Shown here: piece after piece, positions 40,946-64,000 of the stretch
Position numbering within the stretch: the first letter of the stretch is position 1
How the letters are laid out: every line of letters starts with the position of its first letter
From: Hydrogenophaga sp.
GTDB lineage: Bacteria; Pseudomonadota; Gammaproteobacteria; Burkholderiales; Burkholderiaceae_C
Direction of reading: 5' to 3'
Length of the DNA: 64,000 bases
NCBI GenBank assembly: GCA_030653975.1
Contig: JAURYH010000028.1
Span: forward strand, 62,001 to 126,000
Made by a program: the position numbers and the translations under genes
Notes under the pieces: generated by a model
The model's input: the letters and a program-made list of their open reading frames with translations, nothing else
Databases searched by the model: none
What the model was told of the DNA's origin: nothing

Positions 40946-41689
40946 TCAGGGTGCCTTGTTTGAGCGCTGGGCTTTCCAGGCGCGCACGGCTTCGGCCATC
41001 GTGGCCGGTTTTTCTTCGGGCAAGGCGCGGCGGCGCCACAGGTATTCGCCCACGAACATGAGCGCGATCAGCGGCCCGCCCAGCAAGTTGGCGAAGGTCG
41101 ACCAGACAACGACCGGTGCCAGCAGGAACAGCAGCGTGGACATCAGCGCCATGCCGGCAAAAAACAGGCTCCAGGCCAGGGTGACCCGGCGCGTGTAAGC
41201 CGCCTGAGCGGGCGAGAGCACGCCCCCGTGCACGCTGCGGGCCATGCGCGTCACCAGCGACTCCTCCGGCCCGAACAGGGTGCGGCCAAAAAACGCCGAC
41301 AACAGGATGTAAACGCCCAGGTGCTCCAGGTAGTAGAGCAACGCCACCTGGCCCTTAAGGAAGGGCCAGAAGCCCACCAGACCCGCCGCCACCGCCAGGC
41401 CGATCAGGGCGCCCAGCCAGCGGACGGGCAAACGCCAGAGTCCCAGCGCCAGCGCCGTGGTCATCGGGGTCAGGGCCAGCGCCGCGCCCCAGCCCGAGGA
41501 CTCGTTGCCCGCGCTGGTGAAATGGGCCGTCAGGGCCCAGGCCACACCGAGCAAGGCAATGCCCAGCCCGCGCAGGACGGGCCACAGCGTCGACTTGCCG
41601 GTTTTTTCCACCGGGCAGTCCGACCCGAGTCCCGTGCCGATCGGCTCGGGCAGCAGGACTTCAACGGCGTCGGGCAAATGGGGTGGCAT
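40946..41689 (-). CDS. COG4648-type membrane protein of aryl-polyene clusters (ApeG-like)
   Basis: The 247-residue protein has about six predicted membrane helices (LGIALLGVAWALTAH, TALALGLWRLPVRWLGAL, LAVAAGLVGFWPF and others) and the conserved KGQVALLYYLEHLGV and LFGPEESLVTRMAR segments of COG4648 proteins. These are encoded in aryl-polyene and related pigment clusters, where their biochemical role is unknown. ATG 41689 is chosen because conserved sequence starts soon after; the frame upstream looks non-coding. It is divergent from the first ketosynthase and marks the left limit of the cluster. Confidence 0.75.
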   Translation of the reverse strand: MPPHLPDAVEVLLPEPIGTGLGSDCPVEKTGKSTLWPVLRGLGIALLGVAWALTAHFTSAGNESSGWGAALALTPMTTALALGLWRLPVRWLGALIGLAVAAGLVGFWPFLKGQVALLYYLEHLGVYILLSAFFGRTLFGPEESLVTRMARSVHGGVLSPAQAAYTRRVTLAWSLFFAGMALMSTLLFLLAPVVVWSTFANLLGGPLIALMFVGEYLWRRRALPEEKPATMAEAVRAWKAQRSNKAP

Positions 41690-41867
41690 CGTGGGGGCGT
41701 TTCGAGTGGGGGGGCGGAGCGGCCGACCCGATGGCGGGCACGCTGTGTGTAGAAGCCGGGCGGTGCTCGACGGAGCCAAGGCAAGCCGGTGGTCAAGAAC
41801 CGCAATTTTAACGAGTCCCCTAGCCGGCACGGCCTATTGAGCGTCCCTACAATGCAGAGGCGCCATC

Positions 41868-43130
41868 TTGCCGACCTTCGCCCCGCCGAGCCCCGCCGTG
41901 ACGTCCCGACTCAGCCCCGTTCGTGTCAGCGCCTACACCGCCGTTTCCGCCCTGGGAGCGGGAAAAACAGCCCATCTCGATGCCGTGGTCCATGGCCGCA
42001 GCGGCCTGACGCCTTTGGGAGCGCACGACTTCGGCATCGCCCCGATGGCCCAGATGCTGGACACCTGGGTCGGCCGCGTGCCGGGCCTCGAAGTGCCTTT
42101 GCCCAAGCCGTGGGCGCATTGGGACTGCCGCAACAACCGCCTGGCCTGGCTGGGCCTGCAGAACGATGGCTTCATGTGTGCCGTGCGACATGCCGCAGAA
42201 CAACACGGTGCGCACCGGGTGGCGCTGGTGCTGGGCTCCTCCACCGCCAGCATCGGGGCCACCGAGGACGGCTACAAAATGCTCGCCCAGTGCGGCGAAT
42301 TCCCGCCTCAGCCCGCCAACCCGGCGTTGCACACCTTGCATTCACTCACCGGTTTTGTACAGGAGGCGCTGGGTCTGCGCGGGCCGGCCCAGACCATTTC
42401 CACCGCCTGCTCGTCCAGCGCCAAGGCCTTTGCCTCAGCCGAACGGCTGATTCGCCTCGGCCTGGCCGACGCCGCCGTGGTGGGCGGGGTGGACAGCCTC
42501 TGCGGCAGCGTCATGTTCGGCTTTCACGCGCTGCAACTGGTCTCGCCCGAGCCCTGCCGCCCGTTCGACACCCGGCGCCAGGGCATCAACATCGGTGAAG
42601 CCGCGGCCTTTGCCCTGCTCGAACGCGGCGCGGGCGGCCTGCAGCTGCTGGGCTGCGGCGAATCCAGCGACGCCCACCACCTTTCGGCACCCGACCCGAA
42701 AGGCCAGGGGGCGGAGGCCGCACTCGACCAGGCGCTGTCCCGGGCCGGCCTGCCCGCCAGCGCCATCGGCTACATCCACCTGCACGGCACCGCCACCCCA
42801 AAAAACGACGACGTGGAAGCCCAGTTGATCGTGCGGCGGTTCGCGCCCGGCACACCGGCCAGCTCCACCAAAGGCATGACGGGTCACACGCTGGGCGCCG
42901 CCGGGGCGCTGGGCGCGGTGTTCAGCCTGCTGGCGCTGGAGTCCGGCGTCCTGCCGGGCACGGTCAACACCGCTTCGGTGGAGCCGGGCATGGTGCCCTT
43001 CCTGCGCGTCGGACCGACACCGGCACGGGTGCGCCATGTGGTGAGCAACGCCTTCGCGTTCGGCGGCAGCAACAGCGTGCTGCTGTTCGGCCAGGCCTCC
43101 GGTCAGGGTCCGGGAGACCGCGACGCATGA
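41868..43130 (+). CDS. Aryl-polyene-type beta-ketoacyl synthase (first KS)
   Basis: The ketosynthase of about 420 residues has the full Cys-His-His triad: STACSSSAKAF (Cys181), LHGTATPKND (His306) and KGMTGHTLGAAGA (His340). WDCRNNRL and GESSDAHH are features shared with the KS at 54122 and typical of APE ketosynthases. It should extend the ACP-bound chain with malonyl units. The start is TTG 41868, with GAGG seven bases upstream, or GTG 41898. Its stop overlaps the next gene, a chain-length-factor-like partner. It leads the plus-strand arm. Confidence 0.88.
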   Translation: MPTFAPPSPAVTSRLSPVRVSAYTAVSALGAGKTAHLDAVVHGRSGLTPLGAHDFGIAPMAQMLDTWVGRVPGLEVPLPKPWAHWDCRNNRLAWLGLQNDGFMCAVRHAAEQHGAHRVALVLGSSTASIGATEDGYKMLAQCGEFPPQPANPALHTLHSLTGFVQEALGLRGPAQTISTACSSSAKAFASAERLIRLGLADAAVVGGVDSLCGSVMFGFHALQLVSPEPCRPFDTRRQGINIGEAAAFALLERGAGGLQLLGCGESSDAHHLSAPDPKGQGAEAALDQALSRAGLPASAIGYIHLHGTATPKNDDVEAQLIVRRFAPGTPASSTKGMTGHTLGAAGALGAVFSLLALESGVLPGTVNTASVEPGMVPFLRVGPTPARVRHVVSNAFAFGGSNSVLLFGQASGQGPGDRDA

Positions 43131-43978
43131 GCGTTTTCACCACGCACATCGAAGGCATCGGACTCTGGGCGCCCAGCCTGCCGGGCTGGCCCACGGCACG
43201 CGCCGTCTTTCGCGGCGAGGCTGCTGCGCAACATCCGCCGCTGCCGGTTCCCTCGCCGCTGATGCTGTCGCCGGCCGAGCGCCGCCGCGCTCCACAGACG
43301 GTGGCGCTGGCGCTGGCCGCCAGCGAAGAGGCCATCCGCGCATCGGGCCAGGATGCCAGCGGCTTGCTCGCCGTCTTCTGCTCGGCGCACGGCGACCTGC
43401 CGGTCATCGACCACCTCTGCAGCACGCTGGTGGACACACCCCTGCTGCTGTCGCCCACCCGGTTCCTGCACGCCATCCACAACGCGCCGGTGGGCCTCTG
43501 GAGCATGCTCAACCACAACACCCACGCCAACACCGCGGTCAGCGGCGCCGCTCACAGCTTCGCCTGCGGCCTGCTGGAAGCGCTGGTGTTGTGCGAGGCC
43601 GAGCGCTGCCCGGTGCTGCTCACCGCCTACGACACGGCGGCCGTGGGGGCCCTCCAGCACACCACCCGCAGCGCAGGCGCGCTGGCCGTGGCACTGGTGC
43701 TGAGCCCCGGTTGCAACGGTCGCACGCAGGCCGTCTGGCGCTGGCGGCTGACGCCGGACCGGGTCGCTGAACCGGCCCTGCGCAGCGGCGCGGCGCGCGC
43801 ACTGTCCGGCAATGGCATGTCGGGCGCGCTGCCGGTGTTCGAAGCGCTGGCGCGCGGCGAGCAGACCACCATCGCGTTGCCGCTCTCGGCCCACCAAGCC
43901 CTGCACATCGACTGGGCTTCGGGGCCACCAGAAGCCCCGGAGCCCGTCCTCGCCGCTGCCACTGGCTGCACCACCTGA
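43127..43978 (+). CDS. KS chain-length-factor-like protein (ApeC-type)
   Basis: The 283-residue protein resembles the N-terminal half of a ketosynthase (Ketoacyl-synt_2 type). The nucleophilic cysteine position reads VSGAAHSFACG instead of TACSSSA, and no catalytic histidine half is present, so it cannot condense alone. In the E. coli APE system the ApeC-type subunit pairs with a ketosynthase as a heterodimer; the coupled upstream KS is the natural partner here. The paralogue at 53322 shows the same reduced form. Confidence 0.82.
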   Translation: MSVFTTHIEGIGLWAPSLPGWPTARAVFRGEAAAQHPPLPVPSPLMLSPAERRRAPQTVALALAASEEAIRASGQDASGLLAVFCSAHGDLPVIDHLCSTLVDTPLLLSPTRFLHAIHNAPVGLWSMLNHNTHANTAVSGAAHSFACGLLEALVLCEAERCPVLLTAYDTAAVGALQHTTRSAGALAVALVLSPGCNGRTQAVWRWRLTPDRVAEPALRSGAARALSGNGMSGALPVFEALARGEQTTIALPLSAHQALHIDWASGPPEAPEPVLAAATGCTT

Positions 43979-44018
43979 ACCCGGACAGCCCAGCCAGCGT
44001 TTGAGGCGATACTTCCCC

Positions 44019-45656
44019 ATGGACCACACATCCCCTCTTCACGACGTCGTCATCCTCGGCGGCGGCCTCGCCGGTCTCACCCTGGCCTTGCAGCTGAAGA
44101 AACGCGATCCCGGTATCGACATCCTGGTGCTGGAGCGGCGCGCCCACCCGGCCCCCGAGGCCATCCACAAGATCGGCGAGTCGTCCGTCGAGATCGGTGC
44201 GCACTACTTCGACAAGGTGCTCGGCCTCGGCGAACACCTCAGGGACAAACAACTGCGCAAGTTTGGCTTCCGCTTCTTTTTCTCCGAGGGCCGGCGCGAC
44301 ATTCACCAGGTCACCGAGATCGGGGCCAGCCGCCACCTGTCGGTGCCCAGCTACCAGATCGATCGCGGCATTTTCGAGAACTTCCTCGCGATCGAAGCCC
44401 AAAACCGGGGCATCCGTTTTGTCGAGACCGCCATGGTGCGGCAGGTTGAGCTGACCGACGGGGAACCGGGTTCCCATGCGACGCACCAGGTGGTTTATCA
44501 ACACCAGGGCGCATCCCACACCGTCAACGCGCGCTGGGTGGTGGACGCCTGTGGCCGCGCCGGCCTGCTCAAGCGCAAACTGAACCTGGCCGAACTCAAC
44601 GACCACCCGGCCCATGCGGTCTGGTTCCGCATCAAGGACCGCATCCACATCGACGGCTGGAGCGACAACACCGCCTGGCGCGAGCGCTGCGACCCGCAGG
44701 CACGCTGGCTCTCCACCAACCACCTGGTGGGCGCCGGCTACTGGGTCTGGCTCATCCCGCTGTCGTCCGGCTCCCACTCGGTCGGCATCGTGGCCGACCC
44801 GGCGATCCACCCCCTCGCCACCATGGACACCTTCGACAAGGCCATGACCTGGCTGGAGCAGTACCAGCCGCTGCTGTTCGACGAACTGGACCCCAAGCGG
44901 CACCTGCTGCAGGACTTTGCCTTCTTCAAGCGCTTCTCCTATGGGTGCAAACAGGTGTTTTCGGCCGACCGCTGGGCCCTCACCGGCGAGGCCGGCCTGT
45001 TCCTCGACCCCTTCTATTCACCGGGCAGCGACTTCATCGCCATCAGCAACACCTACATCACCGAGCTGATCGCCATGGACCGGCGCGGCGAGCGGCTGGG
45101 CGCGCGCGCGCAGATCTTCGACCAGTTGTTCCATTCCTTCTATGACAGCACCATGGTGCTGTACCAGGACCAGTACCCGCTGTTTGGCGATCCGGAAGTG
45201 CTGCCGGTCAAGGTGATCTGGGACTACACCTACTACTGGGGCGTGCTGGCCCAGTTTTTCTTCCACCAGCGCCTGACCGATCTCTCGTCACTCGCGGCTT
45301 TGCGCAGCGAGCTGGCCGAATGCCAGCAACTCAACGGGCAGGTGCAGGCGTTCCTGCGCCGGTGGTCGCTGGTGAGCCAGAAGCGCAATCCGGCGGTGAT
45401 GCTGGACCAGGCCGGGATGCCCTGGTTCGCGGAACTCAACCGCAGCCTGAACGACGATCTGGACACCGAAGCGTTCCTGGTGCGCATCCGCGAATCCCAT
45501 GCCCGCCTGAAACAGCTGGCTGGCGAGATCCTCCAGCGGGCCCGGGATGACCATCCGGACCTCCAGGCTGACGAACTGGCCGCGTTGCTGCCAGCGACCG
45601 CTGACGCGCCGTCGCGTTCGAACGGCGCCCGCATGCTGCCCGAAACGGTTTTCTGA
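44019..45656 (+). CDS. FAD-dependent halogenase-like protein (first of two)
   Basis: The 545-residue flavoprotein has the Rossmann motif VVILGGGLAGL (residues 10-20), the GES motif at 53-55 (HKIGESSVE), a lysine at 81 in RKFGFRF, and WVWLIP at residues 242-247, matching the WxWxIP signature of flavin-dependent halogenases. EAGLFLDPFYSPGSDF is the FAD/product-side loop. Halogenases use FADH2 and a lysine chloramine or hypohalite to halogenate aromatic rings. Xanthomonadins, related aryl polyenes, are brominated, so ring halogenation is plausible. Oxidoreductase function without halide is the main alternative. It follows the KS-CLF pair by 40 bases. Confidence 0.75.
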   Translation: MDHTSPLHDVVILGGGLAGLTLALQLKKRDPGIDILVLERRAHPAPEAIHKIGESSVEIGAHYFDKVLGLGEHLRDKQLRKFGFRFFFSEGRRDIHQVTEIGASRHLSVPSYQIDRGIFENFLAIEAQNRGIRFVETAMVRQVELTDGEPGSHATHQVVYQHQGASHTVNARWVVDACGRAGLLKRKLNLAELNDHPAHAVWFRIKDRIHIDGWSDNTAWRERCDPQARWLSTNHLVGAGYWVWLIPLSSGSHSVGIVADPAIHPLATMDTFDKAMTWLEQYQPLLFDELDPKRHLLQDFAFFKRFSYGCKQVFSADRWALTGEAGLFLDPFYSPGSDFIAISNTYITELIAMDRRGERLGARAQIFDQLFHSFYDSTMVLYQDQYPLFGDPEVLPVKVIWDYTYYWGVLAQFFFHQRLTDLSSLAALRSELAECQQLNGQVQAFLRRWSLVSQKRNPAVMLDQAGMPWFAELNRSLNDDLDTEAFLVRIRESHARLKQLAGEILQRARDDHPDLQADELAALLPATADAPSRSNGARMLPETVF

Positions 45657-45789
45657 AGACCCGGACCACCCACCGTCCTGCCGGTGGCACGGCCTCATGG
45701 CGCTGCATCCGCCGCAAGCTTTCGATCCGGGCGGAGAGACTATCATTCGGGGCTTCCAGCCGCCCATCGGCATTCCAGAGTCCCATCCC

Positions 45790-47124
45790 ATGAATCCAAA
45801 GGCCCAGGGGGAACCAGGCCCAACCTGCGACGTGCTCGTGATCGGCGGCGGCCCGGCCGGCTCGACCGTGGCCAGCCTGCTGGCCGAGAAGGGGCACCAC
45901 GTGGTGGTGCTCGAAAAAGCCCACCACCCCCGCTTCCACATCGGTGAATCCCTGCTGCCGGCCAACCTGCCGCTGTTCGAAAAAATGGGCATCGCCGACC
46001 AGATCAGGGCCATCGGCATGCACAAGCCCGGCGCCGAGTTCGTGTCGCCCGATCACGAAATGGCACAGACGTTTCACTTTGCGGACGCCTGGGACAAGTC
46101 CATGCCCGGCGCCTACCAGGTCCGGCGCGCCGACTTTGACGAGATCCTGTTCCGCCACGCCGCCGGCAAGGGTGCCGTGACGCACGAAGGCGTCAAGGTC
46201 ACGCAAGTGGATTTTCTGGCCGCAGGCGGTGCCGACGTCAGCGCGCGCGGCGACGACGGCCACGAGATGCAATGGCGCGCGCGTTTCGTGATCGACGCCT
46301 CGGGACGCGACACCTTTCTCGCCAACCGCTTCAAGATCAAGCAGCGCAACCCGCGCCACAACAGCTCGGCGGTGTACGCGCACTTTGACGGCGCACGGCG
46401 GCGTGAAGGCGCCGACGAGGGCAACATCACCATCTTCTGGTTTGCCCACGGCTGGTTCTGGTTCATCCCGCTCACCAACGGCACCACCAGCATCGGCATG
46501 GTGACCTGGCCGTACCACATGAAGACACGCGGGCAGCGCAGCCTGCAGCAGTTCATGATGGACAACATCGCCACCTGCGCGCCGCTCGTCGAACGCCTCA
46601 AGGACGCCCGCCAGGTCAGCCCGGCGGAGGCCACCGGCAATTTTTCCTACGTTTCGCAGAGCAACCACGGCCCCAGCTACCTGATGCTGGGTGATGCCTA
46701 CGCCTTCATCGACCCGGTGTTCTCGTCCGGTGTCTGGCTGGCCATGCACAGCGCGGTGGTGGGCGCCGACACCGTCGACACCTGCCTGCGCGAACCGCGG
46801 CGGGCCGGCGCAGCGCTCAAACGCTTCGACCGCGTCATGCGCCACGGACCACGCGAGTTTTCCTGGTTCATCTACCGCGTCACCAACCCCATCATGCGCG
46901 ACTTCCTGATGGGTCCGAGGAACATCCTGCGGGTCAAGGAAGCGATCCTGTCGGTGCTCGCGGGCGACGTGTTCGGCAAGACGCCGATCTGGCGCTCCAT
47001 CCTGGTGTTCAAGGCGATGTATTACACCGCCAACATCCTGCAGCCCAAGCGCGCGTTCATGGCCTGGCAACAGCGCCGCTTCAACATCCGCAAGGTGGAC
47101 GACCCCGCCCTGTACAACGCATGA
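45790..47124 (+). CDS. FAD-dependent halogenase-like protein (second of two)
   Basis: The 444-residue protein has VLVIGGGPAGS (residues 15-25), FHIGESLLPANLPLFEKMGI with GES at 53-55, lysine 79 in GMHKPGAEF, and GWFWFIPLTNG with WxWxIP at 222-227. GESLLP together with the K-P-G-A-E-F context is typical of phenol/pyrrole-type halogenases. It is distinct from the preceding 545-residue protein, so the pair is not a simple tandem copy. The ATG at 45790 sets the start; a 133-base gap precedes it. A flavin reductase would be needed and is not seen in the window. Confidence 0.77.
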   Translation: MNPKAQGEPGPTCDVLVIGGGPAGSTVASLLAEKGHHVVVLEKAHHPRFHIGESLLPANLPLFEKMGIADQIRAIGMHKPGAEFVSPDHEMAQTFHFADAWDKSMPGAYQVRRADFDEILFRHAAGKGAVTHEGVKVTQVDFLAAGGADVSARGDDGHEMQWRARFVIDASGRDTFLANRFKIKQRNPRHNSSAVYAHFDGARRREGADEGNITIFWFAHGWFWFIPLTNGTTSIGMVTWPYHMKTRGQRSLQQFMMDNIATCAPLVERLKDARQVSPAEATGNFSYVSQSNHGPSYLMLGDAYAFIDPVFSSGVWLAMHSAVVGADTVDTCLREPRRAGAALKRFDRVMRHGPREFSWFIYRVTNPIMRDFLMGPRNILRVKEAILSVLAGDVFGKTPIWRSILVFKAMYYTANILQPKRAFMAWQQRRFNIRKVDDPALYNA

Positions 47125-47990
47125 CACCCACGCACAGCCGCCATCCGGCACGGCATCACTTCCAGCGGCTCGCCGCCTGTGCCTTGCTGCTGTGCAGCGC
47201 TGGCCAGGCCGCACACGCCGCCGAAGAAAAGCCCCTGTGGGAAGCCGGCATCGGCGTGGCCACGGTCAGTTTCCCGGCCTATCGGGGATCGGACCAGCGC
47301 CACAACTTTCTCCTGCCCACGCCCTACTTCGTCTACCGTGGCGAGTTCTTCAAGGCCGATCGGGATGGCGTGCGCGCACAGTTGTTCGACTCGGATCGTG
47401 TGGAACTGACCTTTTCGGCCGCGCTCTCGCCGCCGGCCTCCAGCGATGACATCCGCGCGCGCGCCGGCATGCCGGACCTGAAGGCCAACTTCGAACTCGG
47501 GCCGCAACTGAACCTGACCCTCTGGCGCACCGATGATCGCGCCCGCCAGCTCAAACTGCTGCTGCCCCTGCGCGCGGCCTTCACGCTGGAAAAACAGTCC
47601 CGGAGCCTGGGCTGGGTGGTGCACCCCAAGCTCAACCTGGACATCAGCGACCTGTCCGGCTTCCCCGGCTGGAACCTGGGGCTGCAGTTCGGCCCCCTGT
47701 TCGGCGACCGCAAGCAGCACGGCTACTTCTACGGCGTCGACACCGCCTACGCCACCAGCGACCGGCCGGCCTACGCCGCCGGTGGCGGCTTCGCGGGCAT
47801 GCAGGCCATCGTGGGCGTGTCCAAGCGCTATTCCAAACACTGGCTCGGCGCCTTCCTGCGCTACGACAACCTGAGCGGCGCCCGTTTCGTGGACAGCCCC
47901 CTGGTGCGCACCCGGAACTACGTCGCCGCCGGTGTGGCGGTGTCCTGGATCCTGGGTGAATCGACGACGCGCGTCCTGATTGATGAGTGA
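47121..47990 (+). CDS. MipA/OmpV-family outer-membrane protein
   Basis: The 289-residue precursor has a signal peptide ending AGQAAHAAEE and a body of alternating beta strands. It shows WEAGIGVATVSFPAYRGSDQ, the MipA/OmpV start motif, and ends with a strand containing the terminal-region aromatic and hydrophobic pattern (AAGVAVSWILGES). The family forms outer-membrane barrels, including scaffold and porin-like members. Its ATG overlaps the second halogenase-like gene by four bases. A role in positioning or exporting the pigment is inferred only from context. Confidence 0.8.
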   Translation: MTPTHSRHPARHHFQRLAACALLLCSAGQAAHAAEEKPLWEAGIGVATVSFPAYRGSDQRHNFLLPTPYFVYRGEFFKADRDGVRAQLFDSDRVELTFSAALSPPASSDDIRARAGMPDLKANFELGPQLNLTLWRTDDRARQLKLLLPLRAAFTLEKQSRSLGWVVHPKLNLDISDLSGFPGWNLGLQFGPLFGDRKQHGYFYGVDTAYATSDRPAYAAGGGFAGMQAIVGVSKRYSKHWLGAFLRYDNLSGARFVDSPLVRTRNYVAAGVAVSWILGESTTRVLIDE

Positions 47991-48759
47991 GCACCACCCG
48001 CCGAACGGTCCGCTGTGGACGCTGTACGAGCATGTCGCCATGCTCATCGGACTGGGCAGCCTGGCCGCGCTGTGCCTGGCCTGGCTGCCGTTTGCCATGC
48101 TGCTGCACCCGCTGCTGCCACGCACGATCGGCCAGCGCCTGGGTCGCCAGGTCATCATGGGAGGTTTCCGCGCCTACCTGCGCCTGCTCGGCGCCTTGTG
48201 CTCGTGCCGTTTTGACCTGAGCGAACTGGACACGCTGCGCGACCAGGGGCCGCTGATCATCGCCGCCAACCACCCCTCCCTGCTCGACGCGGTGCTGATC
48301 ATCTCGCGGCTGCCCAACGTGGTCTGCGTCATGAAAGCGGTCCTGATGCGGCATCCCTTGTTCGGTTCGGCGGCGCGACTGGCGCGCTACATCCGCAACG
48401 ACGGCATGTTGCAGATCGTCCAGCAAAGCCGTGAAGCGCTGCAGACCGGCGCACAGGTGCTGATGTTTCCCGAAGGCACGCGCACCAGGGCCTTTCCCCT
48501 GGACCCGCTGACGCCGACACTGGGCCTGATCACCCGGCGCTCGGGCGCCCCGGTGCAGACCGTGATCCTGGAGTTTTCGACCCCCTACCTCGGCAAGGCC
48601 TGGCCCCTGTTCCGCAAGCCAACGCTGCCGCTGCACTGCCGCGCCCGCCTGGGTCGCCGCTTCGACGCGCCCACCGACCACCATGCGTTCACCCGGGAAC
48701 TGGAAGCCTATTTCCGGCAGGAAATGACCCCGCCCGCCCAAGCCGTCCAAGATGCCTGA
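47983..48759 (+). CDS. 1-acyl-glycerol-3-phosphate acyltransferase-like (PlsC) protein
   Basis: The 258-residue protein has one or two N-terminal membrane segments and the acyltransferase motifs NHPSLLD (HX4D) and MFPEGTRTR. In E. coli APE clusters an acyltransferase domain is fused to a glycosyltransferase (ApeJ). Here the acyltransferase and the next gene, a family 2 glycosyltransferase, are separate but overlap by eight bases. It may transfer the polyene acyl chain to a lipid or glycan carrier, by inference. ATG 47983 lies inside the end of the OmpV-like gene. Confidence 0.85.
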   Translation: MSEHHPPNGPLWTLYEHVAMLIGLGSLAALCLAWLPFAMLLHPLLPRTIGQRLGRQVIMGGFRAYLRLLGALCSCRFDLSELDTLRDQGPLIIAANHPSLLDAVLIISRLPNVVCVMKAVLMRHPLFGSAARLARYIRNDGMLQIVQQSREALQTGAQVLMFPEGTRTRAFPLDPLTPTLGLITRRSGAPVQTVILEFSTPYLGKAWPLFRKPTLPLHCRARLGRRFDAPTDHHAFTRELEAYFRQEMTPPAQAVQDA

Positions 48760-49519
48760 AACCACCACCGCCCCTTCAACCACCCACCTGGTGTTGATCC
48801 CCAGCTACAACCCCGGCCCCGGGGTGCTGGAAACGGTGCGCCAGGCGCGCGCGCAATGGACACCCGTCTGGGTCGTCGTTGACGGCAGCACCGATGGCAC
48901 CGGCACCAGCCTCCAGGCCATGGCCCAGGGCGACCCCGGACTGCGGGTGATCGTGCTGCCGGAAAACCGCGGCAAAGGTTCGGCCGTGCTCGAAGGCATC
49001 GACCACGCGGCCCGCGCCGGCTTCACCCACGCGCTCACCATGGACTCCGACGGCCAGCACCCGGCGGACCTGATCCCCACCTTCATGGCCGCTTCGTTGA
49101 AGGCGCCCCAGGCCATGGTGCTGGGCAAGCCGGTGTTCGGCCCCGAAGCCCCCGCCCTTCGCGTCAACGGCCGCAAGGTGTCGAACGGCTGGGCGAACCT
49201 GGAAACGCTGTGGATGGGCATCGGCGACTCGCTCTACGGTTTCCGTGTCTACCCCATCGCACCGCTGGCCCGGATCATGCGGGCCAACCCCTTCATGCGG
49301 CGTTTCGACTTCGACCCCGAAGCGGTGGTGCGGCTGTGCTGGGCCGGCGTGCGGCCGCTCAACATCGACGCGCCGGTGCGCTACCTCAGCGCCGAAGAAG
49401 GCGGCGTCTCGCATTTCAAATACCTGCGCGACAACGCCCTGCTCACCTGGATGCACACCCGGCTCTTCCTCGGTTTCGTGCTGCGACTGCCCCTGCTGAT
49501 CTGGCGCAGATTGAAATGA
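48752..49519 (+). CDS. Family 2 glycosyltransferase
   Basis: The 255-residue protein has the GT-A fold: LVLIPSYNPGPGVLETV at the start, VVVDGSTDGTG, and TMDSDGQHPADLIP with the DxD metal motif. The C-terminal region has a hydrophobic, possibly membrane-associated stretch (RLFLGFVLRLPLLIWRR). It corresponds to the glycosyltransferase half of ApeJ. It would add a sugar to the aryl polyene or its lipid carrier. It overlaps the acyltransferase gene and is followed by a dispersed repeat. Confidence 0.87.
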   Translation: MPETTTAPSTTHLVLIPSYNPGPGVLETVRQARAQWTPVWVVVDGSTDGTGTSLQAMAQGDPGLRVIVLPENRGKGSAVLEGIDHAARAGFTHALTMDSDGQHPADLIPTFMAASLKAPQAMVLGKPVFGPEAPALRVNGRKVSNGWANLETLWMGIGDSLYGFRVYPIAPLARIMRANPFMRRFDFDPEAVVRLCWAGVRPLNIDAPVRYLSAEEGGVSHFKYLRDNALLTWMHTRLFLGFVLRLPLLIWRRLK

Positions 49520-49594: not shown

Positions 49595-49661
49595 TGTGTG
49601 CTGGACGGCACCGCTTCCATCCAGGCACCTCGGCAGACGCGTCGCACTATAGAAAGCTGAT

Positions 49662-56135: not shown

Positions 56136-56935
56136 GGCCTTAGCGCCTGCTGGAGGGTCACGGCCCGCAAGGACTCCGCGTTCAGGCGGTCAAGCAGCAG
56201 CGGCAAGGTGGCCAGGATGACCGGTTGCCCCGCGGGCGTGAGCGCGGCGTGGCCGTCGTGCATGAGCAGGATGTCGCCCGGCCCCAGGCCGCGCGTCAGG
56301 CGCGCCAGCACCTGCTGCGGCCGGCCGTCGCGTGTGTCGTAGGGCCGACGCGTCCACGCCGCGAGTTGCAGATCCAGACTGGCGAGCACCGGCTCCAGGA
56401 AGGGGTTGCGCAGGCCGGCGGTGGGGCGGAAGAACCGCGGCGCCTGGCCGGTGATGTCGCTCAGGCTGGCCTGGGCCGCCACGATGTCGGCGCGCATGCG
56501 CTTGGGGCCGAAGAGTGAAAACGCGTTCGAATGCGAGTCGCCATGGTTTTCGACCCGGTGACCACGCGCCACGATCTCGCGGCACAGGGCGGGGCTCTGG
56601 CGTGCGCGCCAGCCGATGCAGAAGAAGCTGGCCCTGGCACCCGCCGCGTCCAGCAGATCCAGCACACGCGGCGTGACTTCGGGATCGGGGCCGTCGTCGA
56701 TGGTCAGTGCCAGTTCGCGCCGGGCTTGCGCCGCAGCGGGCAGTCGCGTGAGGTTGGGGCCCAGCAGGCTGGAGCGGGGCAAGAGGCCCGCCACCGTGAT
56801 GACCGCGTGGTTGAGCGCCACCGCCCCCAGGGCCCAGGGCCAGATCGCCGGTGCGGCCATGGTGCCGAGCGCAGCACCCACGTGCAGGGCGGCAGAAGCC
56901 TTGAGCGCGGGCGAGGCGGTCCAGGGGCGGCTCAT
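56132..56935 (-). CDS. Polysaccharide deacetylase (NodB-type)
   Basis: The 267-residue protein has one or two N-terminal hydrophobic segments followed by a NodB domain: LTIDDGPDPEVTPRVLDLL (metal Asp), FFCIGWRARQ, NHGDSHSN (metal histidines) and MHDGHAAL. It may remove an acetyl group from a glycan in the envelope or act on the pigment carrier. It overlaps the neighbouring methyltransferase and hydrolase genes. Its part in the pathway is inferred from position only. Confidence 0.83.
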   Translation of the reverse strand: MSRPWTASPALKASAALHVGAALGTMAAPAIWPWALGAVALNHAVITVAGLLPRSSLLGPNLTRLPAAAQARRELALTIDDGPDPEVTPRVLDLLDAAGARASFFCIGWRARQSPALCREIVARGHRVENHGDSHSNAFSLFGPKRMRADIVAAQASLSDITGQAPRFFRPTAGLRNPFLEPVLASLDLQLAAWTRRPYDTRDGRPQQVLARLTRGLGPGDILLMHDGHAALTPAGQPVILATLPLLLDRLNAESLRAVTLQQALRP

Positions 56936-57573
56936 GGCACAGCGGGAAAGTGGCCCTGGTCGAGGAAATGCTGCCACAGCGGCAACCACGCCGCCCAATC
57001 GTGGCCGCCCGGCAAGGTGACGTGGGTCGCGTCGGGCAGGTTCCGGGCCAGCAGGCGCATGCCATCGGCAAAACGGTCCTGCGCCCCATAACCCATGAAC
57101 ACCGGCACCCGGGGCAGGGGCTGCCTGAGCCACTGCCAGAGGCGCACGTCGGGGTCGGTCTGCTGGTCGGGGCGTGCCTGCCAGGCGTCGAGCCCGCCCG
57201 CGCGATCGATCGCGTTGGTGGTCAGCCGACCGCCCGCGTAGGGGGCGAGCAGGCACAGGCCATGCACCTCGCCCGTTCGCCCGGCGAGGCAGGACAGCGC
57301 CAGCTGACCGCCGCGCGAAATGCCCCCCAGCCACACCCGCTGGTACCGCGCACGCGCCGGCGCCAGCCAGTCTTCTTCCAGGCAGCGCAGCGCCAGCTGG
57401 TTGTCGGCACCCTCGGCGTGCAGGTCGGGCGCGACCAGGTCCAGCGCCAGACCCCGCTGCTGCACCTCGGCAAACAGGCCCGCCTGCACCATGTGCTGCG
57501 GCGTCATGAGGGCTCCTGGCAACATGAACAGCACACTGGCGGCTCCGCAGAGCTGGCTTTCGGTCGGATTCAT
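56932..57573 (-). CDS. Alpha/beta hydrolase
   Basis: The 213-residue protein has the nucleophile elbow GGISRGGQLAL, an acid in GYGAQDRFADG, and the histidine in LPGGHDWAAW, the full triad of a small esterase or thioesterase. No signal peptide is seen. E. coli clusters carry a dedicated thioesterase (ApeK); this hydrolase might fill that role, but that is a guess. It overlaps the MMPL and deacetylase genes. Confidence 0.75.
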   Translation of the reverse strand: MNPTESQLCGAASVLFMLPGALMTPQHMVQAGLFAEVQQRGLALDLVAPDLHAEGADNQLALRCLEEDWLAPARARYQRVWLGGISRGGQLALSCLAGRTGEVHGLCLLAPYAGGRLTTNAIDRAGGLDAWQARPDQQTDPDVRLWQWLRQPLPRVPVFMGYGAQDRFADGMRLLARNLPDATHVTLPGGHDWAAWLPLWQHFLDQGHFPAVP

Positions 57574-59918
57574 CGGTCCGCTGTCGCCTTCGGATACACC
57601 AGCACCGCCGCCAGCAGCAGCGCGATCAGCGCGCCCGGCCCGACGGTGATACCGATGGCGTTGAGCACCGGCACCTTGGATGTCGCCAGGGCACCAAAGC
57701 CGATCGCCGTGGTCACGGTTGCGACCGAGAGGGACATCAGCGTCGGCGCATCCAGCGGCTCACCACCGGCCGCCCTGTCAAAAAACAGCGCGTAGTTGGA
57801 ACCCACGGCCACGGTGAGCAGCATGCCCACCAGGTGCAGCAGATGCAGGCGCTGACCGGACAGGTGAAGCACCGAAATCACCAGCATCACGGTGATGGCC
57901 AACGCCAACAGCACACGCAACAGGCGTCCGGGTGAACGCAAGGCCACCGCCAGCAGCACCACGATGGCCAGGAATCCCGCCAGAGACAGCTGAACCGCCT
58001 CACCCACATAACCACCGTACAGGGTTTCGAACTCGGTCTTGAGGTCGACAAACACCGCACCGGTGCCCTCCAGGGCCGCGCGCAGGCGCTCGACCGGCAG
58101 GTTGGCGTCCGGTGCGCCGGGCGCCGGGCGCAAGGGCATCATCACATTCCAGCCACCGTCCTGACCGGGCATCAGCATCGAATCCACCGCCAGCGCCAGC
58201 GCGCTGCCGTCCAGATCGGCGCGCTGCATCACACCGGCCGCGCGTGCCACCTGCACATCGGCCAAAAACGGGCCAAGTTTGGCGGCCGACAGGGGCGAGT
58301 CGATCAGGGCCGCCTGCAGGCGCGCTTGAAGCACCGAGGCCTCGGGCAGACTGGCCAGTCGCTGTTGTTGCAGCCGGGCGCTGGGCAGGAACCGGGCCGG
58401 GCTGTCGTAGCCGCCGATCACACCCTCTTCCACCAACCGGTCCAGTTGCTGACCAGCCCGTTCAGCCGCCTGCAGTGCCAGCTCCGGGTCTTGCGCGTGG
58501 ATGCTGACCAGGTAGCGGGCGTCGGGGGCCGCCAGGTCGTCGCGCATGCGCGCATCGCTCTCGGCCTCGGCCTGGCTCACGGTCGACAGCGCCGAGAGAT
58601 CGGCGTGCCAGAGGTTGTCGCGCTGCTGCCAGAGGTAAGCCAGCGACAGAACCGCCAGCAAACCCACCACCGCACGCAGCCGCCAGGCCTGCCCCAGCAG
58701 GGCATGCACCCGGTGCACCCAGGCCCCGGGCGCTGGCACCTCGAACGCGGTTCCGGCCAGCACGGGCAGCACGAAACGCGTCACCAGCGCCGCCGTCACC
58801 ACGCCGGTCAGCGCGTACAGACCCAGCTGCGACAGGCCGGGGAAGCCCGAGAACAGCAGGGCGCCGAAGCCCAGCGCCGAGGTCAGCACGCCCAGCCTCA
58901 CCGTGGGCCAGAACTGCTGACGCCAGGCGGACAGGCCCATGCGCCCGGATTGCACAAAAAAGTAGATGGCGTAATCCACCGCTTCGCCGATCAGGGCGGT
59001 GCCAAAGCCGATCGTGATGCCAAACACCGTGCCGTGGACCAGACTCACCACCACCACGCCCGCCAGCGCGCCGCTGACCATGGGCAACAAACCCAGCGCC
59101 AACAGGCGCGGCGAGCGATAGACCCAGAGCAGCACACCAGCAATACCCAGCATGCTGATCAGAAGCAACCTTGAGGTTTCCTGCTTGATGGCCTCGCGGG
59201 ACTGGACCGCGAACTGCCCGGGGCCGGACATCTCCAGCGCCAGACCGGTATGACCGGTGGCCTGCACCGCTTGCGCGAAAGCCACACGCACGCCGTCGAT
59301 CGCGACGGCCTGGCCGTCGGTGTCCGAGCCCAGCGCGCGCGTCTGCAGCAGCAGCATGGCGCGTTCGCCGTTGCGGGAGGCCCAGACACCCGCGCGTGTT
59401 TGCGGCTGCGACGCCAGGTTGAGCTGACCCAGCACGGCCAGCACCTCTCCCGTGGGATCGTTCGCCAGGTTGGGCTTGAGCAGCAGACCGGCCGGCGAGG
59501 AGACCAGGTCGATGGTGTCGGTCACGGCGGACAGCAGCCCCTCTTCGGTGAAGCGCTCGGGAGTCACTGTGGGGCTGAGGCGGTAGCGGTGGCGCAGCAG
59601 CACATCGCGCTCACCGTCCAGTCCGCCCGCTTCACCGTTCTGCACCGAGACATAGGCCGGATCACTGGCCAGGCGCTCGCGCAGCTCGCGCGAGATGGCC
59701 GCGCGCTGCGCGGCATCCCCGCCGCCCACCGAAACCATGAGCAGTCGAGACACCGTGCCGTCCCGCAACTGCCCCACGAGCGCCCGCTGTTCGGCACTCG
59801 GCTTGGACGGCAGGAAAAACGACATGTCGGCCGAAAAACGGCTATTCAAGACCACCGCCACGCCGGCCAGCATCAGCGCCAGCCAGACCAGGAATACCCG
59901 GACCGCGGCCGGCCTCAT
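57570..59918 (-). CDS. MMPL/RND-family lipid exporter (ApeM-like)
   Basis: The 782-residue inner-membrane protein has two repeats, each with one helix followed by a large periplasmic loop and five helices. The first begins VFLVWLALMLAGVAVVLNSRFSADMSFFLP; key family segments are FGTALIGEAVDYAIYFF and AVGSNYALFFDRAAGG. MMPL exporters with a LolA-like partner are conserved in aryl-polyene and xanthomonadin clusters and are presumed to move the lipid-linked pigment. ATG 59918 overlaps the LolA-like stop by four bases. Confidence 0.86.
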   Translation of the reverse strand: MRPAAVRVFLVWLALMLAGVAVVLNSRFSADMSFFLPSKPSAEQRALVGQLRDGTVSRLLMVSVGGGDAAQRAAISRELRERLASDPAYVSVQNGEAGGLDGERDVLLRHRYRLSPTVTPERFTEEGLLSAVTDTIDLVSSPAGLLLKPNLANDPTGEVLAVLGQLNLASQPQTRAGVWASRNGERAMLLLQTRALGSDTDGQAVAIDGVRVAFAQAVQATGHTGLALEMSGPGQFAVQSREAIKQETSRLLLISMLGIAGVLLWVYRSPRLLALGLLPMVSGALAGVVVVSLVHGTVFGITIGFGTALIGEAVDYAIYFFVQSGRMGLSAWRQQFWPTVRLGVLTSALGFGALLFSGFPGLSQLGLYALTGVVTAALVTRFVLPVLAGTAFEVPAPGAWVHRVHALLGQAWRLRAVVGLLAVLSLAYLWQQRDNLWHADLSALSTVSQAEAESDARMRDDLAAPDARYLVSIHAQDPELALQAAERAGQQLDRLVEEGVIGGYDSPARFLPSARLQQQRLASLPEASVLQARLQAALIDSPLSAAKLGPFLADVQVARAAGVMQRADLDGSALALAVDSMLMPGQDGGWNVMMPLRPAPGAPDANLPVERLRAALEGTGAVFVDLKTEFETLYGGYVGEAVQLSLAGFLAIVVLLAVALRSPGRLLRVLLALAITVMLVISVLHLSGQRLHLLHLVGMLLTVAVGSNYALFFDRAAGGEPLDAPTLMSLSVATVTTAIGFGALATSKVPVLNAIGITVGPGALIALLLAAVLVYPKATADR

Positions 59919-61521: not shown

Positions 61522-61823
61522 GGGGTCCAGGGCTGCAGGCTGCCCGAAGCGACATCGCGGTCGCCACAGCGCACCATGAACGACAGCCCGCTGCGCACTC
61601 CATCCTGCAGCGTGAACACCAGTGCGTCATCCGGCCCGCAGGGGCTGAGGAACTTGGCCTGCGCGACCTGCCAGGCACCACCCGGGAGCCCCCATTGCGC
61701 CTGCGCCAGCAGCAGCGCCCAATCCAGCAGGACCACGCCGGGCACGATGGGATGCCCCGGAAAATGACCGGCAAAGGCCGGGTGGTCGGACGGCACGCGC
61801 CAGGTTTGCTCAAACACGGCCAT
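61518..61823 (-). CDS. 3-hydroxyacyl-ACP dehydratase, ApeI-like hot-dog
   Basis: The 101-residue protein has VPSDHPAFAGHFPGHPIVPGVVLLDWAL (the DHPAFAGHFPG core), the FabA/FabZ-type hot-dog with catalytic histidine and phosphate loop. It lacks long extensions. ApeI-type enzymes make the trans double bonds during aryl-polyene extension. The ATG at 61823 overlaps the ligase gene by 14 bases. Confidence 0.85.
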   Translation of the reverse strand: MAVFEQTWRVPSDHPAFAGHFPGHPIVPGVVLLDWALLLAQAQWGLPGGAWQVAQAKFLSPCGPDDALVFTLQDGVRSGLSFMVRCGDRDVASGSLQPWTP

Positions 61824-63159
61824 GACCCGACCGCTCCTGGTACAGCGCCAGCAAGGCGGTTCGCGGCAGCTTGCCGGTGCTGTTGCGCGGCAGCGCCTCG
61901 ACCAGCACCAGCGGGCGCGGCAGGAAGACCCGGTCGATGCGCTGGCGCAAGGCGCGTTGCAGTGTGTGCACCGACACACCGGGCGCCACCACAAACGCCG
62001 TCAGCCGGGTGATGCCGCCTGCGTCGTCGACGGCGGTATCGGGCAGGAAAAAGGCCCCGTCCTGCACACCATCGATGGCGCACAACTGGTGGTTCAGGTA
62101 GGCCAGCGAGCTGCGCTTGCCGGCGATATTGATCAGGTCGGCATGCCGGCCGTGCAGAAGAAAACGGCCCGCACCCTGGAGTTCGATGATGTCCGACAGC
62201 GGCACCCGGCCCTCCACGTGGCCCTCGCGCGCATAGGTGGTGTCGTTCTCCTGCTCCAGCACGACACCCGGCAGCAGATGCCACACCGGGCCGTCGGTGG
62301 TTCGCCGGCAGGCCAGCTGGCCCGACTCTGTCGAGCCGTAGATTTCGTGCACGGGTGCCCCGCTGCGCTGCTCGGCCCGCGCGGCGAGCTCGGTGCCCAG
62401 GGGCGCGGTGGCGGACAGGCAGATGTCCAGCGCCGGCCAGGCCAGATTCGACGCCAGCAGGGCCGTGAGGTGGTAGGGCGTGGTCACCAGCATGCGCGGC
62501 CGCGGCACGGCTTGCAGCGCGTCCACGACATCCTGCGGGTAGAACGGCTTGCCGCTCCAGAAACTGCAGCCACCGTGCAGCGCGAGCAGAAAGGTGGACT
62601 CAAACCCGTAACTGTGTTGCGCCGGCACGGTGCCCACGAGCACCGGCGGGTGATCCCGCAGCCCGAGCCCATCAGCCTCGGCCTGCCCGTTCTGCACCAG
62701 CCGGCCCCAGGTCTTGGCGTGCGGCTGCGGCAGACCGGTCGAACCCGAGGTGAACAGGATCGCGACCACACGATCGGCATCCACCACCGGCATCTCCTGC
62801 ACCGGTGAGCGCGGCACAACAGCCAGGTCGGGGAAATCGATGCAAGGCAGACCGGCCACGTCGAAGGGACCATCCACCACGCCAAAAGCACCGGGATGGT
62901 CCTGCGCCAGCCGCTGCAGGGTTTCCCCCGAGTGCGAGGCCGGTTGCAGACTGGTCCTGCCCGCGAGCACACAGGCGGCAAACAGCACCGCAAAGTGGTA
63001 CCGGTCTTCGCACAGGTTGAGCACCCCCTGGCCCGCTGGCAAAACGCCGGCCACGGCCCGTGCATCGGCCAGGAAGTCGCGCACCGTCACGGGACCCGAA
63101 GGCCGCCAGGCGAGCACATCGTCCAGTCCGTGACGGCTGATCAGTGGCAGCCCGCTCAC
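61810..63159 (-). CDS. AMP-dependent acyl-ACP/CoA ligase (ApeH-like)
   Basis: The 449-residue adenylate-forming enzyme has FTSGSTGLPQPH (P-loop), YGSTESGQLA, HGRHADLINIAGKRSS, and the C-terminal lysine in LPRNSTGKLPR. It likely adenylates an aryl acid such as 4-hydroxybenzoate and loads it on the ACP to start the polyene chain. GTG 63159 is preferred because AAGGAGG lies eight bases upstream; the frame before it looks non-coding. It lies 115 bases downstream of the ACP gene. Confidence 0.85.
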   Translation of the reverse strand: MSGLPLISRHGLDDVLAWRPSGPVTVRDFLADARAVAGVLPAGQGVLNLCEDRYHFAVLFAACVLAGRTSLQPASHSGETLQRLAQDHPGAFGVVDGPFDVAGLPCIDFPDLAVVPRSPVQEMPVVDADRVVAILFTSGSTGLPQPHAKTWGRLVQNGQAEADGLGLRDHPPVLVGTVPAQHSYGFESTFLLALHGGCSFWSGKPFYPQDVVDALQAVPRPRMLVTTPYHLTALLASNLAWPALDICLSATAPLGTELAARAEQRSGAPVHEIYGSTESGQLACRRTTDGPVWHLLPGVVLEQENDTTYAREGHVEGRVPLSDIIELQGAGRFLLHGRHADLINIAGKRSSLAYLNHQLCAIDGVQDGAFFLPDTAVDDAGGITRLTAFVVAPGVSVHTLQRALRQRIDRVFLPRPLVLVEALPRNSTGKLPRTALLALYQERSGHGRV

Positions 63160-63274
63160 TGGACCACCCTCCTTGCTGCGCACTGCGGGGCTGAGCGCCC
63201 TGGGAACGGTCCGGCGGCGCATGCGCCAGCCACCCGAATCCGCCAACGCCCCCTGGCTCGCAAAACGCCCAAGC

Positions 63275-63559
63275 TCATTTGGTGCGCTGGCTGGCGATAT
63301 GGGTCGTCAGCGCCCGCAGGGACGCGTAAATCTTGTCGTTGTTCTCGTTGTCCGAGCGCAGCTGGAAACCGTAGTGCTTGGAAATGACGAGCGAAATTTC
63401 AAGCATGTCGATCGAGTCGAGGCCCAGCCCCTCACCGTACAGCGGATCGTCGGGCTTCACGTCCTGGGGCTGCACGTCCAGGTTGAGGGCCTCCACGATC
63501 AGCGCAGCCACCTCGCTCATGAGGTCTTCGAACGGAACGTTGGCAAAGTTTTCTGACAT
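63275..63559 (-). CDS. Acyl carrier protein
   Basis: The 94-residue acidic protein has the phosphopantetheine site GLGLDSIDMLEISL with Ser49. It carries the growing chain. E. coli APE clusters encode two ACPs; only this one lies in the window. It is between the ligase and the third KS, 15 bases after the KS stop. Confidence 0.93.
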   Translation of the reverse strand: MSENFANVPFEDLMSEVAALIVEALNLDVQPQDVKPDDPLYGEGLGLDSIDMLEISLVISKHYGFQLRSDNENNDKIYASLRALTTHIASQRTK

Positions 63560-63574
63560 GGGATTCCCTGGTAT

Positions 63575-64000
63575 TCAGTGGGTAGGCGTCGGGGCGGCGG
63601 CAAAAACCAGCACGGCATTGCTGCCACCAAACGCAAAGGAGTTGGACAGGGCAGCACGCAAGGGAATCTGGCGGCGGCCTTGATAGACATGATCCACCCC
63701 TTCGCAGGCCGGATCAAGCCGGCCCTCCAGGTGCGCGGTGGGTGGGATTGCCTGCTCGCGCAGCGCCAGCACGGTGGCCAGCGCCTCGATGGCGCCCGCG
63801 GCGCCCATCAGGTGACCATGCATGGATTTGGTGGCGCTCACGGGCAGCGCGGGCGCCAGATCACCAAAGACCTGGCGCAGGGCCGCGATTTCCACCGGGT
63901 CACCCTCCTGGGTCGCGGTGCCATGGGCGTTGACGTAATCGATATCGGCGGGTGTGAGCACGGCATCCGACAACGCGGCCTGCAAGGCACGGGCCTGGCC
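63575..64000 (-). CDS. Beta-ketoacyl synthase (third KS), C-terminal part
   Basis: The open frame runs past the right edge. Visible are VNAHGTATQEGDP (first catalytic His), SATKSMHGHLMGAAGA (second His) and SNSFAFGGSNAVLVF, the FabF-like C-terminal half. The cysteine half lies outside the window. It differs from the two KS genes at 41868 and 54122 and is placed at the head of the ACP-ligase group, as in the start of aryl-polyene operons. Confidence 0.9.
   Translation of the reverse strand, partial: GQARALQAALSDAVLTPADIDYVNAHGTATQEGDPVEIAALRQVFGDLAPALPVSATKSMHGHLMGAAGAIEALATVLALREQAIPPTAHLEGRLDPACEGVDHVYQGRRQIPLRAALSNSFAFGGSNAVLVFAAAPTPTH

Follow-up and report, generated by a model that had tools for sequence, protein, structure and literature searches.

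A probable xanthomonadin/arcuflavin-type aryl-polyene locus of Hydrogenophaga with an added, apparently exchangeable ketosynthase, chain-length factor and halogenase-like module

Gene content and conservation of the locus

We analyzed a pigment gene cluster in a 64,000-nucleotide stretch of a Hydrogenophaga sp. genome (GCA_030653975.1, contig JAURYH010000028.1; G000:C41:62001-126000; hereinafter the window), where it occupies positions 40946-64000 and, as the continuation of the same contig shows, extends for about another 2 kb. The evidence leads us to regard it, with good confidence, as a xanthomonadin/arcuflavin-type aryl-polyene (APE) pathway with an added, exchangeable module of a ketosynthase (KS1), a chain-length factor (CLF1) and a flavin-dependent-halogenase-like protein (HAL1). 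The core belongs to an already known kind of pigment cluster, ordinary and well conserved; what appears new is the exchangeable module and the series of replacements and reductions in which it figures among relatives. The host genome (4.09 Mb, 74 contigs, 99.8% complete) is labeled G000, and the genomes of relatives, some of which are drafts, are numbered likewise (e.g., G013, H. pseudoflava; G007, H. flava; G012, taken as H. palleronii); individual loci carry the prefix L, with G038, G059 and G058 being the same as L013, L027 and L037, respectively.

As the preliminary description of this DNA had stated, two runs of overlapping genes converge here, meeting near 51.6-52.2 kb. The forward-strand run (41868-51625) encodes, in order, KS1, CLF1, HAL1, a second halogenase-like protein (HAL2), MipA, PlsC, GT2, a UbiE-type methyltransferase and an antiporter. 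The reverse-strand run (65091 down to 52160) encodes, inward from 65.1 kb, the acyl carrier protein ACP2, KS3, ACP1, a ligase, the dehydratase DH2, an HtrB-type acyltransferase, LolA, MMPL, a hydrolase, a deacetylase, a methyltransferase (MT2), KS2, CLF2, the dehydratase DH1 and a ketoreductase (KR). KS3 crosses the window end, and ACP2 and a divergent PAP2 gene lie past 64000. At the left end, a divergent membrane protein gene adjoins dnaE (37322-40888), which borders the cluster in all 11 Hydrogenophaga loci showing that end (L109-L114, L120, L121, L124-L126) and marks its boundary. The features are as follows:

40946-41689, reverse: arcU-like membrane protein (earlier labeled COG4648), set apart here from the ACP-ligase pair; without a Pfam or NCBIfam match; linked to the cluster through its homologue, which stands between ACP1 and the ligase in 42/80 related named loci (likewise in L115-L119)
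41868-43130 (start 41868 or 41898), forward: KS1, accessory ApeO-type ketosynthase; NCBIfam PRK09185, 458.7 bits; best PDB match 6qsp_A; Cys-His-His; in a clade apart from KS2
43127-43978, forward: CLF1, accessory ApeC-type chain-length factor; Ketoacyl-synt_2; best PDB match 6qsp_B; Leu155 at the Gln column
44019-45656, forward: HAL1, flavin-dependent-halogenase-like protein of the accessory module; Trp_halogenase, 48.7 bits; Lys and WxWxIP kept, SPG at the halide loop; top Foldseek matches mostly halogenases
45790-47124, forward: HAL2, arcA-type flavin halogenase; Trp_halogenase, 94.6 bits; PDB 5buk, 8zop and 5dbj at E 9e-57 to 1e-54
47121-47990, forward: MipA/OmpV outer-membrane protein (arcC); PF06629
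47983-48759, forward: PlsC-type acyltransferase (arcD); PF01553
48752-49519, forward: GT2 glycosyltransferase (arcE); PF00535
49662-50420, forward: UbiE-type methyltransferase at the arcF position; PF01209
50417-51625, forward: CPA2-type cation:proton antiporter (arcG); PF00999, with TIGR00932 below cut-off
52160-52897, reverse: ketoreductase KR (arcH); NF004200 over cut-off
52894-53328, reverse: DH1, putative hot-dog dehydratase (arcI position); by position and conservation
53322-54125, reverse: CLF2, main chain-length factor (arcJ); PF13723; best PDB match 6qsp_B
54122-55312, reverse: KS2, main polyene ketosynthase (arcK); NF006618, 538 bits
55329-56135, reverse: methyltransferase MT2 (arcM); PF13489
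56132-56935, reverse: polysaccharide-deacetylase-family protein (arcN); PF01522
56932-57573, reverse: alpha/beta-hydrolase-like protein at the arcO position; sub-threshold Pfam match; recurs in related loci
57570-59918, reverse: MMPL exporter (arcP); PF03176
59915-60607, reverse: LolA-like carrier (arcQ); PF19574
60604-61521, reverse: HtrB-type acyltransferase (arcR); PF03279
61518-61823, reverse: DH2, ApeI-like dehydratase (arcS); FabA-like PF07977 over cut-off, ApeI-like just under; best PDB match 6qsr_A
61810-63159, reverse: aryl-AMP ligase (arcT); PF00501
63275-63559, reverse: ACP1 (arcV); NF006617 over cut-off
63575-64840 (window part to 64000), reverse: KS3, FabF-like, with a presumed ApeR role; L010:9576-10841
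64837-65091, reverse: ACP2; L010:10838-11092
65263-65994, opposite to KS3/ACP2: PAP2, divergent; L010:11264-11995

The genes thus include an ApeO-type KS with a half-size CLF, together with the ligase, ACP, KR and dehydratases (DH1 by position only) characteristic of the aryl-polyene class, and a membrane-delivery set of LolA, MMPL, acyltransferases, GT2 and MipA. We take PDB 6qsp to be ApeO:ApeC and 6qsr to be ApeI. Most labels in the preliminary description were upheld by family searches, namely ACP, AMP ligase, KS, CLF, KR, one ApeI/FabZ-like dehydratase, two methyltransferases, two acyltransferases, GT2, LolA and MMPL, and likewise MipA/OmpV, the antiporter, the deacetylase and two Trp_halogenase-family proteins. 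Three are weaker: the second dehydratase (52894-53328) is identified by its arcI-like position and conservation, the COG4648 protein by its position in the locus, and the hydrolase (56932-57573) by the sub-threshold Pfam match. That description lacked the two KS-CLF pairs, the accessory module and the run of the cluster past 64000 (third KS, second ACP and PAP2).

A scan with KS2, which is 87-89% identical to the KS2 of H. pseudoflava, H. flava and a Hydrogenophaga metagenome-assembled genome, yielded 80 named loci, each spanning at most 21 kb (the best 80 of 583, many with truncated flanks). A tblastn search of these with 30 window-region proteins, paralogues not being separated, found KS2 in 80, CLF2 in 78, DH1 in 74, the deacetylase in 73, KR in 72, MMPL in 71, LolA and HtrB in 64 each, DH2 and the ligase in 59 each, and GT2 in 57. 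In 69 of the 80, KS2-CLF2-DH1-KR stand side by side in this order, and in 49 GT2 follows KR on the opposite strand; gene order is conserved far more than by chance. Named loci with synteny include those of H. pseudoflava, H. flava and H. palleronii, and the converging layout, with HAL2-MipA-PlsC-GT2-UbiE-NHA facing KR-DH1-CLF2-KS2, recurs for instance in Azonexus (L016), Dechloromonas (L014) and Hydrogenophaga (L013). Where the two arms converge, a gene (51637-52119, reverse strand) encodes a small, secreted-looking protein with repeated NVMGG motifs. The protein matches no Pfam or NCBIfam family; several Hydrogenophaga loci retain it (72-97% in L109, L110 and L126), but it turned up in only 3/80 named loci.

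On another contig (G000:C34) the genome encodes a chorismatase of the FkbO/Hyg5/XanB2 superfamily (PF21168 over cut-off), a candidate for XanB2-type formation of 3-hydroxybenzoate; its 224 bits against TIGR04444 fall below the 325 cut-off. Among 67 genomes of the genus, with one weak ligase match (G063) dropped, 39 have both ligase and chorismatase, two the ligase only, one the chorismatase only and 25 neither (Fisher p=5e-15, uncorrected for kinship). Since the two go together in the genus, a single pathway is supported despite the absence of linkage.

The KS1-CLF1-HAL1 module: phylogeny, places and distribution

The module spans 41868-45656. In a tree of 70 KS rows, made by a quick method with long branches flagged and about two thirds of the KS2 rows from the 80 named loci dropped, the 27 KS1 rows form one clade (SH-aLRT, the Shimodaira-Hasegawa-like approximate likelihood ratio test, 99) and 37 KS2 rows a separate group (93), while L169 (labeled KS1, distant) and L075 and L166-L168 (labeled KS2) fall in neither. 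The KS1 clade takes in all six module copies lying away from the main cluster. By this phylogeny KS1-CLF1 is an old paralogue of the main KS2-CLF2 pair.

Relatives carry the module at several places. It stands at the left end beside dnaE in the window, G048, G013, G014, G007 and G038; beside ACP1 in G059, G020, G058, G051 and L162, and in L122 with a DH1-like gene between; beside the hydrolase gene in L052, L175 and L176; and next to CLF2-KS2 in L172. In L157, L158, L159, L163 and L174 the stretch that was read contains the module but nothing else of the main cluster, and in L173 the module has a hydrolase-like neighbor only. The KS-CLF-HAL order is kept at the left-end, mid-cluster and separate sites listed.

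Within the genus, a KS1-type KS (bits over 490) occurs in 12 of the 67 genomes, HAL1 (E 8e-71 or better) in 19 and both in 11. G026 has KS1 without HAL1, but the contig edge is reached there; HAL1 without KS1 is seen in 8/67 genomes, two of which (G031 and G043) are only 55-64% complete. In wider samples, which overlap and each count our own genome, HAL1 was found at E 1e-60 in 3/399 genomes drawn from the order and 37/399 from the family (15/141 genera), and at E 1e-40 in 8/369 drawn from the class.

A few loci show further variants. In L164 (G1211, 8917-14502) HAL1 is separated from the module's CLF by an antiporter gene and a GT2-like gene. The separate modules of L158 and L159, from two genera, are flanked by the same two genes, one for an AmpG-like transporter and one for an OmpR-type response regulator (both named by eye). 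The distant L166, L167 and L168, from other families, encode a HAL1-like protein (~40%) next to a KS-CLF pair, and MipA as well as GT2-, HtrB- and DH2-like genes lie close by.

Replacement and reduction of the elongation pair

A KS2 search of 25 genomes recovered 12 in the family with a single matching KS, whose position identifies it as that of the module; two distant genomes (G1101 and G1196) are also single-KS, and G600 and G788 have one KS of the KS2 type. Eight of the 12 encode the chorismatase, and we read the regions round it in those eight. In G531, G706, G735, G770 and G796, the main cluster is present with KR, DH1 and MT2 adjacent and KS2-CLF2 missing, the DH1 and MT2 matches being 17-98 bp apart; no KS matches (E 1e-50) other than that of the module, which is on another contig. 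Our best evidence that KS1-CLF1 is able to do the elongation job is that it is the only candidate elongation pair found in these five genomes. The module as a free-standing pathway without a pigment cluster was dropped for the same five, the rest of the cluster having been found round the chorismatase.

The opposite state, in which KS1-CLF1 is absent beside HAL1, occurs at nine loci (G001, G021, G017, G024, G004, G530, G600, G525 and G534), and in G041 a scar beside HAL1 retains only KS1 residues 298-404 and CLF1 residues 208-279. Whole-genome KS searches of six HAL1-only genus members and G600 returned only KS2. On the HAL1 tree, comprising 10 HAL1-only rows and 27 module rows (these including L164 with its other order and the distant L166-L169, whose KS falls outside the KS1 clade), at least 5 changes of module state are required on well-supported branches (minimum 6). 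We read these changes as losses, which the G041 scar shows directly for one of them. HAL1 itself stays under purifying selection in the compared pairs that involve genomes without KS1-CLF1: the ratio of nonsynonymous to synonymous substitution rates (dN/dS) is 0.14-0.22 for G000-G001, G000-G021, G001-G021, G017-G041 and G041-G048, and 0.08 for G024-G004.

KS-CLF pairs in aryl-polyene clusters hence look exchangeable, by a mechanism that, like the reading of the changes as replacement and loss, we infer from these distributions. A tentative extension is that, in this part of the proteobacteria, aryl-polyene pathways have a KS-CLF pair and a halogenase-like flavoenzyme of a distinct S-P-G class as one cassette, which lies inside or outside the main cluster as a unit and can either replace the resident pair, then missing between MT2 and DH1, or shrink to HAL1; the window strain, with the cassette next to the resident pair, would have a two-elongator pigment system.

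Several observations weigh against these conclusions. Seven of the 12 single-KS genomes do not show a main cluster minus KS2: G667, G631 and G827 have the chorismatase and showed only part of the cluster, and G836, G548, G779 and G645 (genus g243) are without a chorismatase and were not searched further. The module was read directly in two of the five replacement genomes (G531, as L158; G796, as L159) and placed in the other three by the spacing of KS and HAL1 matches, and the absence of KS1-CLF1 in G530, G525 and G534 covers the fetched stretch only. In the window, DH1 belongs to no Pfam or NCBIfam family by search, and its PDB matches do not rise above chance level; no counterpart of arcF, arcL, arcW or arcX of the Azoarcus cluster was named at the locus, arcL, arcW and arcX not having been searched for; and CLF1 has Leu in place of a Gln reported as essential, by which the copy may be impaired. 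As for newness, a KS-CLF-halogenase adjacency was probably already drawn for Variovorax in Figure 5 of PMC3691225 (this paper, PMC3949708, PMC8253772 and PMC7336383 are cited throughout from excerpts of their text).

All four g243 genomes carry HAL1 and, by position, one module-type KS with no KS2-type KS, the full order having been seen in L174 (G836) only. Taken together, natural genomes with KS2-CLF2 only, with both pairs, with KS1-CLF1 as the only pair found, or with HAL1 lacking its pair provide a comparison set for chain length and the role of HAL1.

State of the window's KS1-CLF1 copy

The column of CLF1 Leu155 is Gln in 81/89 CLF2 and 19/21 CLF1 sequences, the two CLF1 exceptions being the window and G048. 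We take it to be Q166 of Lysobacter ORF16 because of the equal spacing from a conserved Ser (S120-Q166, 46 residues), the Lysobacter sequence itself being unaligned; the Q166A mutation there abolished the pigment (PMC3691225). 6qsp_B also has Leu at this column (phmmer alignments of CLF1 and CLF2), for which reason Leu155 was rejected as proof of inactivation. Between G000 and G048, dN/dS is 0.21 for KS1, 0.33 for CLF1, 0.14 for CLF2, 0.20 for HAL1 and 0.13 for HAL2.

KS1-CLF1 of the window is either a working second elongator or at an early stage of loss. A working pair, which would yield a second chain length or handle HAL1-modified intermediates, is conceivable though far from assured: the catalytic Cys-His-His of KS1 is intact, the KS1 and CLF1 ratios are well below 1, an equivalent pair would have to suffice where only one was found, and the Leu is shared with 6qsp_B. 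The restriction of the Gln-to-Leu change to the window and G048, the loss of pigment in the Lysobacter mutant, and the lack of an intact pair in four close relatives speak against it. These same relatives suggest a pair that has been superseded and is decaying in the window strain, with HAL1 as the part kept, since G001, G017 and G021 have no KS1-CLF1 beside HAL1 and G041 has the scar; the Leu substitution and the higher ratio of CLF1 versus CLF2 in the same genome pair point the same way. Given the open frames, the purifying selection on KS1 and, again, the Leu of 6qsp_B, we hold decay, too, only as a tentative reading.

The two halogenase-like proteins

Motifs were counted after dropping open reading frame matches covering under 80% of the query. 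HAL2 has the active-site Lys, WxWxIP and an S-x-G loop (S-S-G) in 26/26 rows (the window plus 25 of 48 rows, the other 23 not being aligned), and HAL1 has the Lys and WxWxIP in 63/63 rows with the halide loop as S-P-G in all 63 (repeats from overlapping loci included). The S-x-G loop holds halide by its backbone NH groups; in six solved halogenases it reads S-[Q,S,T,Y]-G, none having Pro. HAL2 shares sequence, Lys and WxWxIP with PltA and Mpy16 (PDB 5dbj, 5buk), which we take to act on carrier-bound substrates, whereas HAL1 is only distantly similar to these and is a remote relative of solved halogenases (best PDB match 5.5e-17). The predicted structure of HAL1 is of moderate confidence (mean predicted local distance difference test score, pLDDT, 66.8), and since its halide loop is under 50, the loop argument rests on sequence. 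Foldseek searches with this model placed CtcP, PltM, PltA, CmlS, CndH and others first; the top 40 include one flavoprotein/dehydrogenase (3nix) and FasV (8zop), a named halogenase in the PDB sequence search.

The Pro in the loop of all 63 rows and the presence of 3nix among the top fold matches would fit HAL1 being a related flavin monooxygenase or dehydrogenase rather than a halogenase. We consider this unlikely, because the catalytic-type Lys is kept in every row and the other top-40 matches, FasV aside, are named halogenases, brominases or chlorinases. The pigment itself had been described as perhaps halogenated, and a halogenated outer-membrane polyene is possible but doubtful. HAL2 is close to the solved halogenases 5buk and 5dbj, both HAL1 and HAL2 keep the Lys and WxWxIP, and xanthomonadins are brominated (PMC3691225, PMC3949708); against this, HAL1 has SPG instead of SSG, and Azoarcus carries arcA, yet its arcuflavin, C41H52O4, is halogen-free (PMC3949708), because of which a halogenase gene is no proof of a halogenated product. 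The excerpt of the paper on the halogenase Xcc4156 mentions no pigment (PMC7336383).

Predicted pathway and other pigment identities

The chemistry, product and function that we infer for the locus are as follows. The unlinked XanB2-like chorismatase would make hydroxybenzoate, and the AMP ligase would transfer this to an ACP. Chain initiation may fall to KS3, and KS2-CLF2 with KR and the two dehydratases would extend the chain to a conjugated polyene, whose ring may be decorated by the methyltransferases and HAL2. With the acyltransferases, GT2, LolA, MMPL and MipA, the acid would be joined to lipid and delivered to the outer membrane, where it would serve as a yellow pigment with a protective role. 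KS1-CLF1-HAL1 would represent an old second ApeO/ApeC-type elongation pair traveling with its own halogenase-like flavoenzyme.

An arcuflavin-like polyene-dialkylresorcinol (DAR) hybrid, such as the closest described cluster, that of Azoarcus, makes (PMC3949708), is a highly improbable product here. For a darB-like second ketoacyl synthase of the KASIII type, the 99.8% complete genome offers one KASIII over cut-off and one weak match (darA was not searched for); with a single KASIII over cut-off, no DAR hybrid is expected, and this identity was rejected. Flexirubin models gave FlxB and LolA2_flexi matches below cut-off, and the other Flx models no listed match among the proteins scanned.

A carotenoid as the strain's own pigment was likewise rejected, as no CrtI phytoene desaturase over cut-off is present in G000; 24/67 genomes of the genus have one. 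Of these 67, 12 have both ligase and CrtI, 29 the ligase only, 12 CrtI only and 14 neither (p=0.20); the two are not mutually exclusive in the genus, and no general rule on Hydrogenophaga pigment therefore follows. H. flava has both, and its two CrtI-family genes (C13:66616-68076 and C13:81359-82840, ~13 kb apart) may constitute a photosynthesis-type carotenoid locus. H. pseudoflava and H. palleronii carry the cluster with no CrtI over cut-off in either. The old description of the genus reportedly includes a statement on carotenoids, and the cluster bears on what makes Hydrogenophaga yellow.

Comparison with known systems

The assignment to the xanthomonadin type of aryl polyenes, made in the preliminary description, was borne out by comparison with arcuflavin, xanthomonadin-like and APE clusters. 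In our searches of the open-access literature we found no paper on Hydrogenophaga with an aryl polyene, and no report of two KS-CLF pairs in an aryl-polyene cluster or of a replacement series; on carotenoids or yellow pigment of Hydrogenophaga they led only to a passage concerning another genus. The nearest likeness is to arcA-L and arcM-V of Azoarcus BH72 (PMC3949708), of which arcA, C, D, E, G-K and M-V were matched here by annotation and position, with no alignment to BH72 sequences. Much of the order is shared, as are the halogenase, deacetylase, MipA and antiporter genes and a XanB2-superfamily chorismatase in the genome. Most genes that had been taken as additions to the standard set are standard after all, because Table 1 for BH72 lists nearly the same set, with the halogenase (arcA), MipA (arcC), antiporter (arcG) and deacetylase (arcN), and the hypothetical arcO at the position of the hydrolase; insertions in arcK (KS) and arcT (ligase) rendered BH72 colorless (PMC3949708). 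Unlike BH72, the Hydrogenophaga genome has one merged locus, an unlinked chorismatase, no second KASIII found, a UbiE-type methyltransferase at the arcF position, the arcU-like gene at the far end, the extra KS1-CLF1-HAL1, and KS3, ACP2 and PAP2 at the right end.

With the xanthomonadin-like cluster of Lysobacter enzymogenes/Xanthomonas (PMC3691225) it shares a KS with a half-size CLF-like partner, KR, two dehydratases, ACP, LolA and exporters; the excerpt describes one KS-CLF pair, in contrast to the two here. According to the legend of its Figure 5, halogenase genes accompany the KS-CLF pair in the examples except Lysobacter and Xylella. The APE systems of E. coli CFT073 and Xenorhabdus doucetiae use a 4-hydroxybenzoate starter, against the XanB2-superfamily chorismatase here, and the excerpt names no halogenase for E. 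coli APE, as opposed to our two halogenase-like proteins (PMC8253772). In E. coli, ApeR serves initiation and ApeO:ApeC elongation, alongside two ACPs and two dehydratases, and the roles in these systems fit KS3, KS2-CLF2, ACP1/ACP2 and DH1/DH2 of the present locus (PMC8253772).

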